Positions 2,317-9,321 of a stretch of 64,000 nt of DNA are shown here, piece after piece. The first letter of the stretch is position 1. Each line of letters begins with the position of its first letter. Source of the DNA: Polyangium spumosum (GTDB lineage Bacteria > Myxococcota_A > Polyangia > Polyangiales > Polyangiaceae); NCBI RefSeq assembly GCF_009649845.1, contig NZ_WJIE01000003.1, positions 434,001 to 498,000 of the forward strand. Reading direction: 5' to 3'. The notes beneath the pieces are model-generated. The model was not told the DNA's origin. It saw only the letters and a list, made by a program, of their open reading frames with translations, and did not search any database. The position numbers and the translations under genes are program-made.

Positions 2317-2586
2317 GTGCTCGGTGATCTCGTCAAGCGCCTGGTGAACGGCGTGGTGTTCCTGCTCGGGAGCCTCGCGTTTTTCCTCGTCCCCGTCGGA
2401 GGCAAGACGTCGGCGCAACACGTCGTGGCGATCTTCTCCACGAAGCCAGCGCGCGAGGCGGCCCAGGCCTTCGCCCACGCCGCGCAGGACCTCGCGCGGG
2501 AGGTCGCGAAGAACGTGGAGCGAGCCAAGCGCGCCCCGGCCCTGCCCGACGCGAAGCCGAAGCCCGCGAGCGGAGCCTTGCGTTAG
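2317..2586 (+). CDS. Small membrane protein of unknown function
   Basis: I do not recognise this 89-residue protein. It has one hydrophobic segment near residues 9-28 (LVNGVVFLLGSLAFFLVPVG), then an amphipathic Ala/Glu/Arg-rich helix and a Pro/Lys/Ala tail. The GTG start at 2317 follows a purine-rich GGGAAAGGGAGG stretch at a suitable distance. Longer in-frame extensions would run back into the kinase gene on the other strand, so I rejected them. Its stop TAG overlaps the TAA of the convergent ferredoxin gene within the shared bases CGTTAG. A small anchored protein is the most that can be said. Confidence 0.6.
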   Translation: MLGDLVKRLVNGVVFLLGSLAFFLVPVGGKTSAQHVVAIFSTKPAREAAQAFAHAAQDLAREVAKNVERAKRAPALPDAKPKPASGALR

Positions 2587-2948
2587 CCCTTCTTCACCTT
2601 GCGCGGGTCCGTGTGCTGCGGGTGCTCGTTGTAGAAGGCATCGAGGCTCTCGCGCGAGATCTCGGCCTCGATGTCGCCCTCGCGCTCGATCTTCGCCTGG
2701 CAGCCGAGGCGCGAGTTCAACCGCACGTCGAAGGCCTTGTCGAGGATGTCGTCCTCGTCCTCCTCGGACTCGGAGAGCAGCTCCTTGCCACGCAAGACGT
2801 ACACGTGGCACGTCGAGCACGCGCACACGCCGCCACACGCCGAGCCCTCGGGCGCATCGACCTTGCGCGCCGCTTCGAGGAGCGATGTCCCGACCGGTAC
2901 CTCGACGTCGTACGTCGACCCGTGCGCCAGAAACCGTACCTTTGCCAT
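2583..2948 (-). CDS. fdx: ISC-type [2Fe-2S] ferredoxin
   Basis: This adrenodoxin-like ferredoxin supplies electrons during iron-sulfur cluster assembly on IscU. It has 121 residues. Cluster ligands are visible as C38, C44 and C47 (C-x5-C-x2-C) with the fourth at C83 in RLGCQ. An extra cysteine, C42, sits inside the loop; ISC-type ferredoxins of the E. coli kind also carry one at this place. An acidic stretch at about 60-69 (SESEEDEDD) matches the partner-binding helix of this family. It is the last gene of the isc operon, and its ATG shares one base with the hscA stop codon, so the two are probably translationally coupled. Confidence 0.93.
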   Translation of the reverse strand: MAKVRFLAHGSTYDVEVPVGTSLLEAARKVDAPEGSACGGVCACSTCHVYVLRGKELLSESEEDEDDILDKAFDVRLNSRLGCQAKIEREGDIEAEISRESLDAFYNEHPQHTDPRKVKKG

Positions 2949-4894
2949 CAGCTTCCCGTCTCGGAGGCGTCCGCAGCCTCTGCGCTCTGCCCCGCGTGTT
3001 CAGCCAGGTGCGCCTCGACGCCCCGAGCCTTCGCCACGGTCGTCTCGATCGCCCCCACGTCCTTGCCCGCGATCGCCCTGGCGATCGCACGATCCATGCG
3101 CCGACCCGCCCAGTCGTGCGTGACGTCGTCGAGGACCTCGGTGCGGCCGCGGATGATCGCCGCGCGCGTGCCCCGAATGGCCTCCTCGAGCCCGGCGAGC
3201 GCCTCTTCGATCCGCGCGCGCTCCTCGTCACCTTCGAGCAGATCCGCGTCGGCCACGAGCGCCTTGCGCGTCGCGAGCACGACCCGCTCGGCCTCGACGC
3301 GCGCCTCGATGAGCTGACGCTTCTCGAGGTCCTCCTCGCCGTGATCGAGCGCGGCCATGAGCATCGCCTCGACCTCCTCGTCGCTGAGGCCGTAGCTCGG
3401 CTTGACCTCGACCTTCTGCTCGACGCCGGTCGTGAGCTCCTTCGCGGTCACGCTGAGCAGGCCGTCCGCGTCGACGCGGAAGGTGACCTCGAGCCGCGCG
3501 AGGCCCGCGGGCATGGGCGGGATTCCTTTGAGCACAAACCGAGCGAGGGAGCGGCAGTCGGTCGCGAGCTCACGCTCGCCCTGCACGATGTGCAGATCGA
3601 AGCCGGTCTGGTTGTCCGCGTAGGTGGTGAAGGTCTGCCGCGCGCCGGCGGGGATCGTGGTGTTGCGCGGCAGGATCTTCTCGACGACGCCGCCCATGGT
3701 CTCGAGGCCGAGCGAGAGCGGCAGGACGTCGAGGAGGAGGACCTCGCCCTCACGCTCCGTCGATCCTGCGAGGATGTCGGCCTGGATCGCGGCCCCGAGC
3801 GCGACGACCTCCTCGGGATCGAGGTCGCTGAGCGGGCGCTTGCCGAAGAGTTTTTCCACGTACGTGCGCACGAACGGCACGCGCGTCGAGCCGCCGACGA
3901 GGATGACGCCGTCGAGCTCGTCGGCCGAGACGCCCGCGTCACGGAGCGCGCGCCGACAAGCGACGCCCGTGCGCTCGACGATCGGCTTGATGAGCGCGTC
4001 GAACTCGTCACGCGTCACGAGGACCTTGCGCCCCTCGATGTCGGCCTCGACGCGATCACTCTCGGTGAGCCCGTGCTTGATTTTGCGCGCCGTATCGAGC
4101 GCGAGGCGCACGAGCTCGCGAGGTCGGCTCTCCGGAGAGACACCGAGGTCCTGGAGGATCCGCTCGGCGAGCGCGCGATCCATGTCGTCGCCACCGAGCG
4201 CGCTGTCGCCGCCCGTCGAGCGCACCTGGAAGACGCCGTCGTCGAGCAGGAGGATCGTGATGTCGAAGGTGCCGCCGCCGAGGTCGTACACGGCGAAGAG
4301 GCCGTTCTTCTGCTTCTCGAGGCCGTACGCGAGCGCCGCGGCGGTCGGCTCGTTGAGGAGCCGGAGGACGTCGAGGCCCGCGAGCTTGCCCGCGTCCTTC
4401 GTCGCTTGCCTCTGCGCGTCGTCGAAGTAGGCGGGCACGGTGATCACCACGCCGCCGACGGAGCGGAGCTCGTCCTCGGCGAGCGAACGCAGGGCCTTCA
4501 GGATCTCGGACGAGACCTCGACGGGCGTGACGGCGCGGCCACGCACGAGGAACCGCACGCTCTTCGCCTCCTCGGGCGTCTTCGGCTCGGCGAACTCGTA
4601 AGGGCCGAGCCTTCGCGTCTCGGGATCGTCGGCCCCGCGCCCCATGAACCGCTTCACGCTGACGATGGTCTCGCGCGGGAAGTCGACCGCGATGCGCTGC
4701 GCGTCCCTGCCGACGATCACGCGGCCGCGAGGGTCGTAGTGCACGACCGAGGGGACGAGCTTCTCCGCGTTGCAGTCGGCGATGACCACGGGCTTGCCGT
4801 CCCGCACGCGCGCGACGAGCGAGTTCGTGGTGCCGAGGTCGATGCCGATCGGCCTCGGGGCCGCCTTGGGGTCGAAGATTTCGAGCAGAGCCAT
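2948..4894 (-). CDS. hscA: Hsp70-type chaperone HscA of iron-sulfur assembly
   Basis: HscA is the specialised Hsp70 that, with HscB, releases the nascent cluster from IscU using ATP. The 648-residue product has the Hsp70 phosphate-loop signature IGIDLGTTNS at about residues 16-25 and the second signature DLGGGTFD near 209-216. The third, VILVGGSTRVP, is present too, followed by a substrate-binding domain. The N-terminal MALLEIFDP lead before the first motif is typical of HscA and not of DnaK. It lies between hscB and fdx, and IscU in the same operon keeps the LPPVK tag that HscA binds. Length is close to the usual 610-650. Confidence 0.94.
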   Translation of the reverse strand: MALLEIFDPKAAPRPIGIDLGTTNSLVARVRDGKPVVIADCNAEKLVPSVVHYDPRGRVIVGRDAQRIAVDFPRETIVSVKRFMGRGADDPETRRLGPYEFAEPKTPEEAKSVRFLVRGRAVTPVEVSSEILKALRSLAEDELRSVGGVVITVPAYFDDAQRQATKDAGKLAGLDVLRLLNEPTAAALAYGLEKQKNGLFAVYDLGGGTFDITILLLDDGVFQVRSTGGDSALGGDDMDRALAERILQDLGVSPESRPRELVRLALDTARKIKHGLTESDRVEADIEGRKVLVTRDEFDALIKPIVERTGVACRRALRDAGVSADELDGVILVGGSTRVPFVRTYVEKLFGKRPLSDLDPEEVVALGAAIQADILAGSTEREGEVLLLDVLPLSLGLETMGGVVEKILPRNTTIPAGARQTFTTYADNQTGFDLHIVQGERELATDCRSLARFVLKGIPPMPAGLARLEVTFRVDADGLLSVTAKELTTGVEQKVEVKPSYGLSDEEVEAMLMAALDHGEEDLEKRQLIEARVEAERVVLATRKALVADADLLEGDEERARIEEALAGLEEAIRGTRAAIIRGRTEVLDDVTHDWAGRRMDRAIARAIAGKDVGAIETTVAKARGVEAHLAEHAGQSAEAADASETGS

Positions 4895-4913: not shown

Positions 4914-5444
4914 TCAGGGAGAGAGCTCTTCTTCGATGGCCGCCGCCTCGTCGAGGAACCGCCGAAGATAACGGAGCTCGCCGAGCTCGGGCAGGACGAC
5001 CGCGAGCTTCTTCGGATCCGGATCGGACGCCGCGAACTGACGCGCCATCGAGGCGAGCACCTCGCGCTCGCGCCCGCGCACCACATCCGCGAGCGCATGT
5101 ACGGCCGCGAGATCCTTGCGCCGCCGCGCGTCGCCGAGCTCCTCGCGCCGCTCCATCATCTCCATCAGGAGATCGGGCGACGGCTTGGGCTCGGCAGTCT
5201 CGCCGACGGGCACGCCCGCGCGCCGGAGGAGCGCCTCGGCGCGGCGGATCGGATCCTTGAGCACGCGGAAGGCGTCGTTCACCTCGATCGCGCGCGACAG
5301 GGACAACCGCCGCTCGGCCGCGGGCGCGCCGGCGTAACGGTCGGGGTGGAGCGCGCGCGAGAGGTCGCGATGCCGGCGCGCGAGCTCGTCCGGTTCGAGG
5401 TCGAAGCGGGCCTCGACGCCCAGCGTCTTGAAGGGATCGATCAT
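4914..5444 (-). CDS. hscB: J-domain co-chaperone HscB
   Basis: HscB brings IscU to HscA and stimulates its ATPase. The 176-residue product starts MIDPFKTLGV and carries a J-domain with the diagnostic HPD at residues 33-35. A helical C-terminal domain rich in Glu and Arg follows, where HscB family members bind the scaffold. I took the ATG at 5444: upstream in-frame codons read through the iscA 3' end and give a sequence unlike any J-protein. It lies 41 bases after iscA and 19 bases before hscA. Confidence 0.92.
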   Translation of the reverse strand: MIDPFKTLGVEARFDLEPDELARRHRDLSRALHPDRYAGAPAAERRLSLSRAIEVNDAFRVLKDPIRRAEALLRRAGVPVGETAEPKPSPDLLMEMMERREELGDARRRKDLAAVHALADVVRGREREVLASMARQFAASDPDPKKLAVVLPELGELRYLRRFLDEAAAIEEELSP

Positions 5445-5485: not shown

Positions 5486-5905
5486 TCAACCGACGGTGAA
5501 CGAGTGGCCGCAGCCGCAGCGGCTGGCTTCCTTGGGGTTCTTGAACTTGAAGCCCTGAAACATCAGGGTCTTCTCCCAGTCGAGCACCGAGCCGCCGAGG
5601 TAGAGGATGCTCTTCTTGTCGCAATAGACGCGCACCGTGCTCTTGCCCTCCTCGGGGAACTCGAGCACGAGGTCGCCCTTGCGCGGAGCGTCGTCGTCGA
5701 ACTCGATGACGTACGAGAACCCCGAGCAGCCGCCGCCGCGGATCCCGATGCGGATCGCAGCGTCGGGCGTGCCCCGCTTCGCGAGGTTCGTCCGCATCGC
5801 CTCCACTGCCGCGGTCGTCACGCCGATCGTCTTCTTCGCGTCCGTCGGCGCAGGCGCTCGCTGCTCTGCCTGGTTGCCCTGCGAAATCTCGCTGCTCGCG
5901 TTCAT
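5486..5905 (-). CDS. iscA: A-type iron-sulfur carrier protein IscA
   Basis: A-type carriers hold and pass on Fe-S clusters to target proteins. The 139-residue product has the three conserved cysteines of the family: C60 in GGGCSGFSY, and C130 and C132 in the C-terminal CGCGHSF. The first 25 residues are a polar extension (Asn/Gln/Ala/Pro-rich) not seen in short IscA proteins. It lies between iscU and hscB, as in gamma-proteobacterial isc operons. ErpA or SufA would share the same cysteines; context decides for IscA. Confidence 0.92.
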   Translation of the reverse strand: MNASSEISQGNQAEQRAPAPTDAKKTIGVTTAAVEAMRTNLAKRGTPDAAIRIGIRGGGCSGFSYVIEFDDDAPRKGDLVLEFPEEGKSTVRVYCDKKSILYLGGSVLDWEKTLMFQGFKFKNPKEASRCGCGHSFTVG

Positions 5906-5939: not shown

Positions 5940-6344
5940 TCACTGCCCCGAGAGGGCCTTCTTCGCCGTCTGCTTCGACCGGAAATCGGCGATGGCGCTC
6001 TTGATCGCGTCCTCGGCGAGCACCGAGCAGTGGATCTTCACCGGCGGCAGGTGGAGCTCCTCCGCGATCATGCTGTTCTTGATCTGCTCGGCCTCGTCGA
6101 TCGTCTTGCCCTTGAGCCACTCCGTGGCGAGGGACGAAGAGGCGATCGCCGAGCCGCAGCCGAACGTCTTGAACTTCGCGTCCTCGATGACGCCCGCGTC
6201 GCTCACCTTGATCTGCAGGCGCATCACGTCGCCGCAAGCGGGCGCGCCGACGAGGCCCGTGCCGACGTGCTCGTCGTTCTTGTCGAGCGTGCCCACGTTG
6301 CGCGGGTTCTCGTAGTGCTCGATGACCTTCTCGCTGTATGCCAT
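5940..6344 (-). CDS. iscU: Iron-sulfur cluster scaffold IscU
   Basis: IscU is the scaffold on which clusters are built from sulfur delivered by IscS. The 134-residue protein has the three ligand cysteines C37, C63 and C106 and the aspartate D39. The HscA recognition tag LPPVK stands at residues 99-103 directly before IHC106. All are canonical, so the protein should be fully active. It starts 31 bases after the iscS stop in the same operon. Confidence 0.96.
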   Translation of the reverse strand: MAYSEKVIEHYENPRNVGTLDKNDEHVGTGLVGAPACGDVMRLQIKVSDAGVIEDAKFKTFGCGSAIASSSLATEWLKGKTIDEAEQIKNSMIAEELHLPPVKIHCSVLAEDAIKSAIADFRSKQTAKKALSGQ

Positions 6345-6375: not shown

Positions 6376-7599
6376 TCAGTGCGCTGCCCACTGCACGGAG
6401 GCGAGATCGATGCCTTCCTTGTGCATTTCGTAGAGCGGGGACATCTCGCGAAGCTTGTTCACCTTGCGGATCACGAGGTCGGCCACGTAGTCGACCTCCT
6501 CCTCGGTGGTGAAGCGGCCGAGGCCGAAGCGGATCGAGGAGTGCGCGAGGTCGTCGCCGATGCCCATCGCGTGAAGCACGTACGAGGGCTCGAGGCTCGC
6601 GCTCGTGCAGGCCGAGCCGCTCGACACCGCCACGTCCTTGATCGCCATGATGAGGGCCTCACCCTCGACGAACGCGAACGAGACGTTGAGGTTGCCCGGG
6701 AGCCGGTGCTCGAGCGAGCCGTTCACGAAGACCTCCTCGAGCTCACCCGTGATGCGCCGCCGCAGCTTCTCCCGGAGCGCGAGGATGCGCTCGCTCTCGG
6801 CGCGGCCCTCCTCCAGCATGATCTGCGCGGCCTTCGCGAAGCCCACGATGCCCGGCACGTTCAGCGTGCCCGAGCGCATGCCGAACTCGTGCCCGCCGCC
6901 GTCCATCGTCGCGACGAGGCGCACGCGCGGCTTCGACCGGCGCACGTAGAGCGCGCCGACGCCCTTCGGCCCGTACATCTTGTGCGCGGTGATCGAGGCG
7001 AGATCGACGTGCATCGCCTCGACGTCGAACGGCACCTTGCCCACGCCCTGCACCGCGTCCGAGTGCAGGAGCACGCCGCGTGACCGCGTGATCTTCCCGA
7101 TCTCGGCGATCGGCTGCACCGTGCCGACCTCGTTGTTCGCGAGCATCACGGAGACGAGGATCGTCTTGTCCGTGATCGCCTTGGCGACGTCGTCCGGATC
7201 GACGAGCCCGTCCTTGCCCACCGGCACGTACGTCACCTCGAAGCCCTGCTTCTCCAGGCGCTTGCACGTGTCGAGCACGGCCTTGTGCTCGATCACCGTG
7301 GTGACGATGTGGTTGCCCTTCTCCTTGTAGAGCTCGGCGACGCCCTTGATCGCGAGGTTGTCGCTCTCGGTCGCGCCCGACGTGAAGACGATCTCCTTCG
7401 GGTTCGACGCGCCCACGAGCTTCGCCAGGATCTCCCGCGAACGCGAGACCGCCTCCTCCGCCGTCCACCCGAAGGCGTGGCTGCGGCTGGCTGCGTTGCC
7501 GAACTTCGCGTTGAAATACGGCAACATCGCCTCCACGACGCGCGGATCGACCGGCGTCGTGGCGTGGTAGTCCATGTAAATCGGGATCTGGATCGACAT
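6376..7599 (-). CDS. iscS: Cysteine desulfurase IscS
   Basis: IscS is a PLP enzyme that converts cysteine to alanine and carries the sulfur as a persulfide to IscU and to thiolation enzymes such as MnmA, whose gene is also in this window. In the 407-residue product the N-terminal [14 protein letters not shown] is diagnostic. H105, the PLP lysine K207 ([10 protein letters not shown]) and the catalytic cysteine C331 ([10 protein letters not shown]) are all visible. I chose the ATG at 7599, preceded by AGAGAG at good spacing, over a start eight codons upstream. It follows the regulator gene by 27 bases. Confidence 0.95.
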
Positions 7600-7626: not shown

Positions 7627-8190
7627 CTAGCGATCCGCGCCGCCTCGGGAATGCCCGTTTCCACCATGAATTCCGGCCACCAGCTCGGGCTCGGCCTGCG
7701 TCCGGTCGTGCACGCTGCAGTCCGTGCAAGCAGCCACGAGCTCTTCGGGATCACACGTGTCGCACGTGTCGAGGTAATCGATGCTCGCCACGAGCTCACG
7801 CTCGAGCGACGAGAGCCGCGTGATCTGCGCGCGCGTCTCTTCGAGCTGCTGCAGGTAGATCGACCGGATCCGCGCCATCGCCTCCGGCGCCGACGGCGCG
7901 CTCTCCCAGAGCGCGACGATCTCCTGGATCTGCGCGAGGCTGAGGCCGAGATCGTGCAGCTTGCCGATCCACCGCACGCGCGTGACCGCAGCCCGATCGT
8001 AGAGCCGATACCGGCCCTTCGAACGCGCATGCGGCCGGAGCAAGCCCACCTCCTCGTAGTGGTGGATCGCCCGCACCGTCTTGCCGACGGCACGCGCGAT
8101 GTCCCCGACCTGGAGGAGACGCTCGCCCCCCTGCCCGTCCCGATCCTCGTCCAGATCCGGCGGAACGAGCCCCGCATCGGCCCGCTGCAC
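7627..8190 (-). CDS. MerR-family regulator with a four-cysteine C-terminal motif, heading the isc operon
   Basis: The protein has a MerR-type winged helix near residues 25-95 (LLQVGDIARAVGK, YYEEVGLL-like HHYEEVGLLRPH, GRYRLYD). A dimerisation helix follows near 108-140. After it come cysteines C143, C146, C155 and C158, spaced C-x2-C-x8-C-x2-C. In SoxR a cysteine cluster at the equivalent place binds a [2Fe-2S] cluster, but the spacing differs here. Its place as first gene before iscS, where IscR sits in other bacteria, suggests it senses Fe-S status or a metal and controls the operon; that is inference. The start is uncertain. GTG at 8190 is preferred because the stretch up to an ATG at 8274 has low GC3 and two rare TTA codons. 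The ATG does have a GGAG site. Confidence 0.8.
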   Translation of the reverse strand: MQRADAGLVPPDLDEDRDGQGGERLLQVGDIARAVGKTVRAIHHYEEVGLLRPHARSKGRYRLYDRAAVTRVRWIGKLHDLGLSLAQIQEIVALWESAPSAPEAMARIRSIYLQQLEETRAQITRLSSLERELVASIDYLDTCDTCDPEELVAACTDCSVHDRTQAEPELVAGIHGGNGHSRGGADR

Positions 8191-8298
8191 ACCCCGAGCA
8201 CGAACGCCATCCGGGAGAGGAAGGACACCCCTCTCGTAGCCCCGCGCTAAAGGTAAATGCCGAACCGACCGCATCCCGAACTCCAACCCTCACGTATG

Positions 8299-8316
8299 CG
8301 TTAGGGTGACCTAACG
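8299..8316. promoter_or_regulatory. 18-bp perfect dyad, candidate operator of the MerR-type isc regulator
   Basis: The arms CGTTAGG and CCTAACG are perfect reverse complements separated by GTGA. The site lies in the divergent gap between the MerR-type regulator gene and the lipoate-ligase-like gene. MerR proteins bind such dyads between widely spaced -35 and -10 elements. A further TTTAGG follows at 8322-8327, echoing the arm. I could not fix convincing -35/-10 boxes, so promoter direction is not settled. Confidence 0.55.
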
Positions 8317-8364
8317 GAAGGTTTAGGCGGCCCACGGGAGGCTGTCAACCGGAGCAGGACGAAA

Positions 8365-9321
8365 ATGCACGCGATCGAGCCCAAGAAGCGCCCGATCCCC
8401 GAGGCCCTCGCGCTCGGCCCCGCGCTGCTCGGGCGGGCCGAGCAGGCCCAAGCCGTCCACGTGGCGCTGAGCCTGGTCGACGGGCCCGCCGTGGTGCTCG
8501 GCGCAGCACAACGAGCAGGACGCGTCGTGGAGCTCGCGGCGTGCACGACACGAGGCGTGGTGGTGCTGCGCCGCGCGACGACAGGGACGGCAGCGTGGCT
8601 CGGCGGCCGCGGGCTCGTCGTCACGCTCGCGCTCCCGCACGTCGCCGCGCTCGTGGCCGACGCGACGCCGCGCACGCTGCTCAACCGGAACGTGCGGCCG
8701 CTGCTGCGAGGGTTCTCTCACGCGGGCGCGCTCGCCCACTACTTCGGCCGCGAGTGGATCTCGCTGCGAAAGCGGCCCGCCGCGCTGCTCGGCTTCGACG
8801 TGACACCCTCGGGCGCAGTCCTGATCGAGGTGTTCGTCGGTCACGACGAGCCGATCGCGCTGCCCACGAGCCTGACGAGCGTCCATGAACGCGCGCTCGA
8901 TCGCTTCGGCGGCAAGCAACCAACCTCGCTCTCGGAGATCATGCCGAGCGCGGCGCCCGAGGCGTTCGCCCACGCGCTGCTCGAGGGGTTTTTGGCGCGC
9001 GTGGAAGAGCCGGCGACCGCGCTCGCGCAAGACACGGGCGAGCTCGACACGAGCCCCTTCGCTCCGATCACGAGCGCGCTCGATCCGGTGCCCGAGGCGT
9101 TCGTCCTGCATCCGGCCGCGCGTGTCCCGATCGGGTGGCTCGAGTCGGCCAGCACGTCGCCCGAGGGAGGCGAGCGCCACGTGTGGCTCGGCGGCGACGT
9201 GCTCGCGCCGCGCTTCGCGCTCGATCGCATCGCCCACGGCGACGCCCCGCCGCCCGACATACCGCTCGAAGGCGCGACGCTCGCGGACCTCGTGGCCCGC
9301 CGGGACCTCGGTTTGGTTTGA
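8365..9321 (+). CDS. Lipoate-protein ligase-like (BPL/LplA-fold) protein, tentative
   Basis: The 318-residue protein resembles the LplA/LipB/BirA catalytic fold but is divergent. The stretch TTRGVVVLRRATTGTAAWL followed by a G-G-R-G-L turn is like the RRxSGGGAVxHD loop of lipoate ligases. A later FGREWISLRKRPAALLGFDV stretch is like the lysine-containing strand that binds lipoyl-AMP. The invariant lysine cannot be assigned with certainty. It diverges from the isc operon; lipoyl synthesis needs Fe-S clusters, so the neighbourhood makes sense but proves nothing. The C-terminal third is unrecognised. It could instead be an unrelated protein of unknown function. Confidence 0.5.
   Translation: MHAIEPKKRPIPEALALGPALLGRAEQAQAVHVALSLVDGPAVVLGAAQRAGRVVELAACTTRGVVVLRRATTGTAAWLGGRGLVVTLALPHVAALVADATPRTLLNRNVRPLLRGFSHAGALAHYFGREWISLRKRPAALLGFDVTPSGAVLIEVFVGHDEPIALPTSLTSVHERALDRFGGKQPTSLSEIMPSAAPEAFAHALLEGFLARVEEPATALAQDTGELDTSPFAPITSALDPVPEAFVLHPAARVPIGWLESASTSPEGGERHVWLGGDVLAPRFALDRIAHGDAPPPDIPLEGATLADLVARRDLGLV

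Follow-up and report, generated by a model that had tools for sequence, protein, structure and literature searches.

SoxR is a MerR protein that carries a [2Fe-2S] cluster on cysteines spaced C-x2-C-x-C-x5-C, and SoxR and CueR are both activators. In the case of IscR, cluster presence favours repression. To our knowledge, none of the regulators of Fe-S assembly known so far (IscR and RisR of the Rrf2 family, and SufR) is a MerR protein. In Myxococcus xanthus, RisR (Rrf2, subgroup IS6) is encoded in the suf operon and governs both isc and suf through the palindrome T(t/g)GAC-N7-GTCC(t/a), and holo-RisR represses isc, its site there taking in the start of transcription and most of the -10 box (PMC9973013, from the part of the paper available). 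The word MerR is absent from the main text of that paper, and the literature searched, largely at the level of abstracts, did not yield any account of a MerR regulator linked to isc or suf. The sites of MerR activators lie between -35 and -10, and the CadR site, AACCCTGTAGTTACTACAGGGTT, has the outer arms ACCCT and AGGGT (both from the available part of PMC12301328).

The window, i.e. the whole stretch of 64,000 nucleotides analysed here, belongs to the 10.8-Mb genome of Polyangium spumosum and holds an isc operon on the minus strand in the order merR - iscS - iscU - iscA - hscB - hscA - fdx. The earlier note had placed a MerR-type gene as the first gene before iscS, which is borne out by the profile matches, as is the iscS-iscU-iscA-hscB-hscA-fdx order behind it:

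7627..8274, minus strand: gene for a MerR-family regulator of 215 amino acids (Pfam MerR_1/MerR-DNA-bind), with start ATG at 8274-8272 and a Shine-Dalgarno-like GGAG at 8284-8281
7717..7764, minus strand: segment coding C171-x2-C174-x8-C183-x2-C186, cysteines invariant in alignments A1 and A2
6376..7599, minus strand: iscS, the first gene downstream of the regulator (NCBIfam IscS, 647 bits, over the cut-off)
5940..6344, minus strand: iscU (TIGR01999, over the cut-off)
5486..5905, minus strand: iscA, A-type carrier (TIGR00049 over the cut-off; IscA equivalog under its cut-off)
4914..5444, minus strand: hscB (TIGR00714, over the cut-off)
2948..4894, minus strand: hscA (TIGR01991, over the cut-off)
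2583..2948, minus strand: 2Fe-2S ferredoxin gene, fdx (Fer2, 5.3e-12; TIGR02007, 78 bits, under the cut-off of 132)

Three MerR models (MerR_1, MerR and MerR-DNA-bind) exceeded their cut-offs in the Pfam scan of the 7627-8274 product, with PF13411 at 3.1e-15 and MerR-DNA-bind at 1.1e-10, which identifies a MerR winged helix; the scan of the protein gave MerR models alone, and no Rrf2 domain was found in it. The winged helix-turn-helix and the dimerisation helix that mark the MerR family are both present, according to Pfam and the predicted fold. On the other side, no NCBIfam equivalog cut-off was reached: the SoxR equivalog scored 45.3 bits against a cut-off of 116.9, and the metal-sensor equivalogs scored 60 against 151 bits (CadR-PbrR), 68 against 147 (CueR), 54 (52) against 143 (168) (ZntR) and 49 against 151 (MerR). 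By the tests made, the regulator belongs to the MerR family, yet it is neither SoxR, CadR nor IscR.

Its start is most likely ATG 8274 rather than GTG 8190, because GGAG at 8284-8281 lies upstream of the former and the N-terminal stretch thereby added is conserved, a [RHKQ]LP[ILV] motif occurring in this stretch in 82 of 104 distinct relatives compared with 90 of 5200 shuffles. This motif, found at 8227-8274 of the window and in relatives, precedes a linker of low confidence in the AlphaFold model, and it looks lineage-bound, since most far orthologs have a short stretch or one without the motif. The cysteines had been numbered C143, C146, C155 and C158 before, which implies the GTG start; their spacing stands, and with the ATG start they become C171, C174, C183 and C186. 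Selenocysteine at one of these positions was considered and rejected, as the apparent internal stops in translated rows (L023, L032 and others) are normal gene ends.

The cysteines were compared among 104 distinct proteins, i.e. 127 rows from 59 related genomes and the best 80 of 211 relatives minus 23 rows alike over residues 6-140, where the two sources overlap and some loci are the same record. Both cysteine pairs are kept in all 104, and a histidine at +3 in 93. The spacing C-x2-C-x8 occurs in 72 and C-x3-C-x8 in 25, giving C-x2/3-C-x8-C-x2-C in 97 of the 104, which is not the spacing of SoxR; the remaining seven have x4 in the first pair, or pairs set 9 to 25 residues apart. All four cysteine columns are invariant in alignment A1, which includes 42 of 47 orthologs, and in alignment A2, whose 59 rows are that of the window plus 58 drawn from the best 80 of 211 relatives; A2 leaves out 22 of these 80, among them L066, L069, L071 and L075, the four loci in which the two pairs are far apart. 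Moreover, the search for this spacing beside iscS that had been proposed in the earlier note met no iscS-adjacent homologue without the cysteines, except for the far ortholog L206, which keeps three of the four.

In the AlphaFold model of the regulator (mean pLDDT 80.5) a long helix spans H129-173, with C171 inside it and C174 just past its end, and residues 171 to 190 have a pLDDT of about 70. Together with the Pfam matches, this agrees with the architecture described before, namely a MerR winged helix, a long helix and then C-x2-C-x8-C-x2-C. SoxR and CadR tie as the top structural match in VIA-align (2zhh: Z 12.6, rmsd 5.3, 116 aligned; 6jni: Z 12.3, rmsd 3.6, 123 aligned), while Foldseek ranks CadR first, and CadR is also the closest PDB protein by sequence (1.3e-10). 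The regulator resembles SoxR in its MerR fold and in a C-terminal cysteine cluster past the dimer helix, and differs from it in the spacing C-x2-C-x8-C-x2-C, in an operator past the -10 box and in its predicted target, Fe-S assembly instead of soxS. The SoxR profile match reaches residue 132 of the 169-residue regulator query, and the cysteine tail stands at about what we take to be the position of the SoxR cluster ligands.

The ligand on the four cysteines may be an Fe-S cluster, with zinc as the main rival. In that alternative the two CxxC pairs would hold structural or sensory zinc, and isc would be repressed by zinc or another metal instead of by cluster supply. The variation of the pair spacing among the 104 proteins speaks for zinc, as does the fact that CadR, a Cd/Zn sensor, is the closest solved relative. 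A first pair of the form C-x2-C, C-x3-C or C-x4-C also suits zinc, and a spacing that is neither SoxR's nor IscR's, with a gap between the pairs varying from 8 to 25 residues, has to be counted against the cluster. The place of the cysteine tail, at about that presumed for the SoxR ligands from the reach of the profile match, speaks against zinc, as does the gene neighbourhood treated below; all in all, we regard zinc as unlikely.

An ortholog of the regulator is present in 47 of the 59 related genomes (E at most 3.9e-28), in all 47 directly upstream of iscS with a gap of -4 to 121 nt. When one genome per species was scanned, 211 relatives were obtained, the best 80 of which form the set of named loci; in 78 of these 80 loci the next gene downstream is iscS, at a gap of -4 to 130 nt, and the remaining two are L069, which is cut by a contig end, and L119, which is linked to suf. 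Among 377 Myxococcota genomes, a strong match (best E at most 6.9e-40) is found in 126, and at 112 of the 138 IscU loci over the cut-off the regulator gene is found on the same strand, 1252-1825 bp upstream. The regulator stands before Fe-S assembly genes in most Myxococcota having this machinery. It is the head gene of isc, the position that IscR occupies, and instead of a linkage to metal-efflux genes, as expected for a metal sensor, it heads an isc or suf operon.

Twenty more distant members from 19 genomes were also inspected: 17 precede an iscS that is 54-71% identical to that of the window, two precede an iscS-like gene (38-39% identity), and L204 precedes neither. In a set of ten loci, L214 had no match and L215 ends inside the cysteine tail; in L211 the one downstream ORF checked gave no match. 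In family f49 (L208, L209 and L219), the gene after the regulator is a divergent iscS-like one with 38-40% identity (Aminotran_5 in L208), and neither an iscU match in the stretch inspected nor a recognisable operator was seen there. L204 (3615-4163, plus strand) and L218 (3917-4471, minus strand) are second copies in genomes of family f38, with an operator-like site of 16/22 and no isc gene; in L218 a gene for a sigma-70-type factor (Sigma70_r2, r4) is directly downstream.

Upstream of the regulator gene the following elements are found:

8286..8307, minus strand: conserved operator ACCCTAACGCATACGTGAGGGT, sharing its outer half-sites with the CadR site (PMC12301328, available part)
8299..8316, minus strand: dyad of the earlier note, CGTTAGG-TCAC-CCTAACG, sharing one half-site, the left half of the operator, and kept in part of the genus
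8343..8348, minus strand: -35 box TTGACA, read from the sequence, letters checked
8320..8325, minus strand: -10 box TAAACC, 17 bp past the -35 box, inferred by eye with the letters checked and no tool score

The dyad at 8299-8316 had been put forward as an 18-bp perfect one that would be conserved. It consists of two 7-bp arms around four unmatched bases and is kept in four of six members of the genus (the window genome, L004, L005 and L006). It was rejected as the operator because it is broken within the genus, in L007 and L008, where the overlapping 22-mer at 8286-8307 becomes a better palindrome; the conserved site is this 22-mer, with the consensus ACCCTnACG-CATA-CGTnAGGGT in the window. 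At 16 or more of the 22 positions, the operator ACCCTnACGCATACGTnAGGGT precedes 76 of the 80 regulator genes (best 80 of 211 relatives) and 42 of the 47 orthologs, five of which have no such site. With a leave-one-out matrix, at least 10 bits were reached in 78 of the 80 upstream regions, two being without such a site. The same score was reached in 1 of 1600 shuffles and in none of 78 control stretches of equal length, which begin 200 nt beyond the regulator gene and fall mostly within iscS.

In the window genome the isc site is the sole match of the operator model, and a pattern search with up to three mismatches gave one place, although a backward control pattern gave 3 matches as well. The model rests on 52 of the stronger sites, has rough E-values and would miss weak sites. 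It matched nothing but the isc locus in 34 of the 59 related genomes (E at most 0.05) and had no match in the other 25, 13 of which have the regulator gene. A wider regulon was therefore rejected, there being no second site in the window genome and none outside the isc locus in the 59 genomes at this E-value. A divergent ORF at 8365-9321 (plus strand), with a weak match to a lipoyl-ligase catalytic domain (2e-06), shares the 90-bp promoter region and, if real, could share the regulator's operator.

The operator of IscR differs from this one. The site of CadR/PbrR (Cd/Zn/Pb) has the same outer arms, ACCCT/AGGGT, and CadR is the closest PDB sequence, whereas the inner operator bases, the 4-nt centre, the location past -10, the cysteine tail and the target operon set the regulator apart (PMC12301328, available part). 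It is likely that the regulator binds the predicted 22-bp operator, because the outer arms equal those of CadR and CadR is the closest solved protein.

In the window the order is TTGACA (8348-8343), 17 bp, TAAACC (8325-8320), 12 nt and the operator. A TTGAC is found 20-60 nt before the best site in 62 of 76 loci, at 36-43 nt in 49 and at another distance in 13, and none is found in this range in 14; when all sites of at least 12 bits are counted, among them weak ones that overlap, the distance is 36-43 nt in 57 of 88 site/TTGAC pairs. In the 49 loci a normal 17-bp promoter would therefore end before the site, and the distance is too far for a dyad inside a 19-20 bp spacer, the -10 box being read for the window alone. 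As MerR activators sit between -35 and -10 and the operator here lies past -10, the geometry favours repression, and autorepression by the regulator is likely. A MerR activator of the classical type, underwinding a promoter whose spacer is too long, would agree with the MerR fold and with those loci in which a further operator, or the sole one, lies at another distance from TTGAC; a second operator upstream of the -35 box or promoter is seen in several loci, some 58-79 bp away. Given the 36-43 nt in 49 of 76 loci, which leaves the 17-bp promoter ending before the site, an activator of this kind is hardly to be expected.

The genomes without the regulator were also considered. SUF (SufBD core) is present in 11 of the 59 related genomes, and the regulator occurs in 46 of the 48 SUF-less genomes but in only one of the 11 with SUF (Fisher 1.1e-8). 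IscU exceeds its cut-off in 47 of the 59, and 46 genomes have both IscU and the regulator; the two mismatches are contig-end cases, i.e. G034, with no MerR gene and iscU 165 bp from the contig start, and G039, with the MerR gene and a split iscU. Among the 377 genomes, 26 IscU loci have no linked regulator gene. Contig ends or splits account for four of them or leave them undecidable (G034, G194, G263 and G266), and the other 22 belong to families f25, f26 and f29, of which six upstream regions were inspected. At both f26 loci inspected (L224 and L225), the gene directly before iscS encodes an Rrf2 protein (Pfam 1.1e-28 and 3.3e-29) whose cluster region has three cysteines. At three f25 loci and one f29 locus (L226, L227, L228 and L230), no regulator was seen upstream of isc, and a GACTANNTTRGTC palindrome follows TTGAC; by our own reading this palindrome would fit the M. 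xanthus RisR site with its GAC-N7-GTC core (PMC9973013, available part). There seem to be three kinds of isc control within one phylum, because MerR, Rrf2 (f26) and a RisR-like palindrome (f25, f29) head different isc loci.

IscR itself was over the curated cut-off in 0 of the 377 Myxococcota genomes, with matches under the cut-off in 273. The claim that the regulator takes the place of IscR is upheld by this and by f26, which lacks the regulator and, at both loci inspected, has the three-cysteine Rrf2 gene exactly there. An IscR elsewhere in the window genome was also looked for and rejected: there are two Rrf2 matches, of which the one over the cut-off (L001) is an ORF with a single cysteine. 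The L001 gene adjoins a gene for a PALP-family enzyme, cysteine-synthase-like by our own reading.

The regulator also occurs in a second phylum. In L119 (Candidatus Eisenbacteria), the MerR gene and the operator stand before an A-type carrier gene, sufC and sufB, the last with an intein of the LAGLIDADG type. The regulator gene is present in 27 of 47 genomes of this phylum, that of L119 included, and sufC lies within 0.8 kb downstream in 25 of the 27; in the other two, the stretch ends after the carrier gene (L244) or iscS is downstream (L259). All 27 keep both cysteine pairs, and the operator reaches at least 16/22 in 22 of them. The clade heading the A-carrier/sufC/sufB operon comprises L119, L231 and L234-L258. 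In a quick tree with SH-aLRT support alone, a midpoint root and many forks unsettled, the SUF-linked rows (L119 and 13 sampled) formed one group with an SH-aLRT of 96 among isc-linked rows. Whether isc or suf does the work, this regulator accompanies Fe-S assembly, and no other single argument for its role is as strong. The order of the suf operon also bears on the idea that the cysteines form a metal-free thiol or persulfide switch, sensing oxidants or sulfane sulfur delivered by IscS. Such a switch would suit the cysteine desulfurase gene that adjoins the regulator in nearly all Myxococcota loci inspected, and L208, L209 and L219 with their iscS-like gene and no iscU match in the stretch inspected; however, the operon inspected in the second phylum begins with A-carrier, sufC and sufB and not with a desulfurase, and four conserved cysteines with a histidine at +3 in 93 of 104 proteins resemble a set of ligands, so that we consider a switch of this type very improbable.

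A second MerR family with a CxxC-x8/9-CxxC tail is represented by L210, L213, L216 and L217, L210 being in the window genome itself (G000 C3, at about 844.5 kb). Downstream of the paralog, L210 and L217 have folE (GTP cyclohydrolase I) plus a LON-substrate-binding gene, L216 has folE, and L213 has a LON-type gene. The paralogs share with the regulator the type of tail on a MerR scaffold, but differ in clade, tail sequence and the downstream folE: L210, L216 and L217 form a separate clade (support 100) with an LPRAVRLLW-like tail, the operator match of the folE-linked paralogs was never above 12/22, and no isc gene was seen beside them. The product of folE is a zinc enzyme, and zinc stays a candidate ligand because paralogs with the same cysteine pattern precede folE and/or a LON-substrate-binding gene. 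By contrast, the linkages inspected in the clade of the regulator are isc, suf or iscS-like, apart from the second copies L204 and L218, the latter before a sigma-factor gene, and no zinc-transport linkage was seen among the loci inspected.

At the level of sequence, the regulator, the operator and the Fe-S assembly operon form a conserved unit, and the regulator represents a new MerR subfamily, widespread and associated with Fe-S assembly, which it very likely governs. In the explanation we prefer, with a probability of roughly 0.62, the regulator would be an autorepressor built on a MerR scaffold, dedicated to Fe-S cluster biogenesis and sensing Fe-S status via its cysteines. What follows on the ligand, on binding to the 22-mer and on repression as the direction of control is inferred. 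A dimer of the regulator would bind ACCCTnACG-N4-CGTnAGGGT from about the transcription start onward, just past the -10 box, and block transcription of its own gene and of the downstream isc (or suf) operon. The CxxC...CxxC(xxH) tail would hold an Fe-S cluster, made by the controlled operon, when clusters are plentiful, and demand or oxidative stress would empty the cluster site and lift the repression. In this mechanism the regulator probably works like IscR of E. coli, with which it shares the first place in the isc operon and the proposed feedback by cluster supply, while the two proteins belong to unrelated families, IscR being an Rrf2 protein. The autorepressor is read as acting in its holo form since cluster presence is known to favour repression in IscR and does so in RisR (PMC9973013, available part). 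RisR is further alike in repressing isc in the same phylum from a site at the -10/start region, and unlike in being an Rrf2 protein with another palindrome (same source). Slightly less firmly, but still as the better supported view, we hold that a MerR subfamily whose cluster site is CxxC-x8-CxxC(xxH), a fold for which this role would be new, serves as Fe-S feedback sensor across two phyla, keeps one operator through the ISC/SUF switch, occupies the place that Rrf2 regulators have in sister lineages and acts as a holo-repressor beyond -10, unlike SoxR and CueR.

Fe-S assembly must match demand. With its operator, four cysteines and single target, the regulator is directly testable in cultured Sorangium or Polyangium. 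If the autorepressor reading is true, it would explain the control of isc in many Polyangia that have ISC and are without SUF and a recognisable IscR, and SoxR, an activator, would gain a repressor cousin. A MerR regulator with its own operator, governing isc in one phylum and suf in another, would then be an independent evolutionary answer to this demand.
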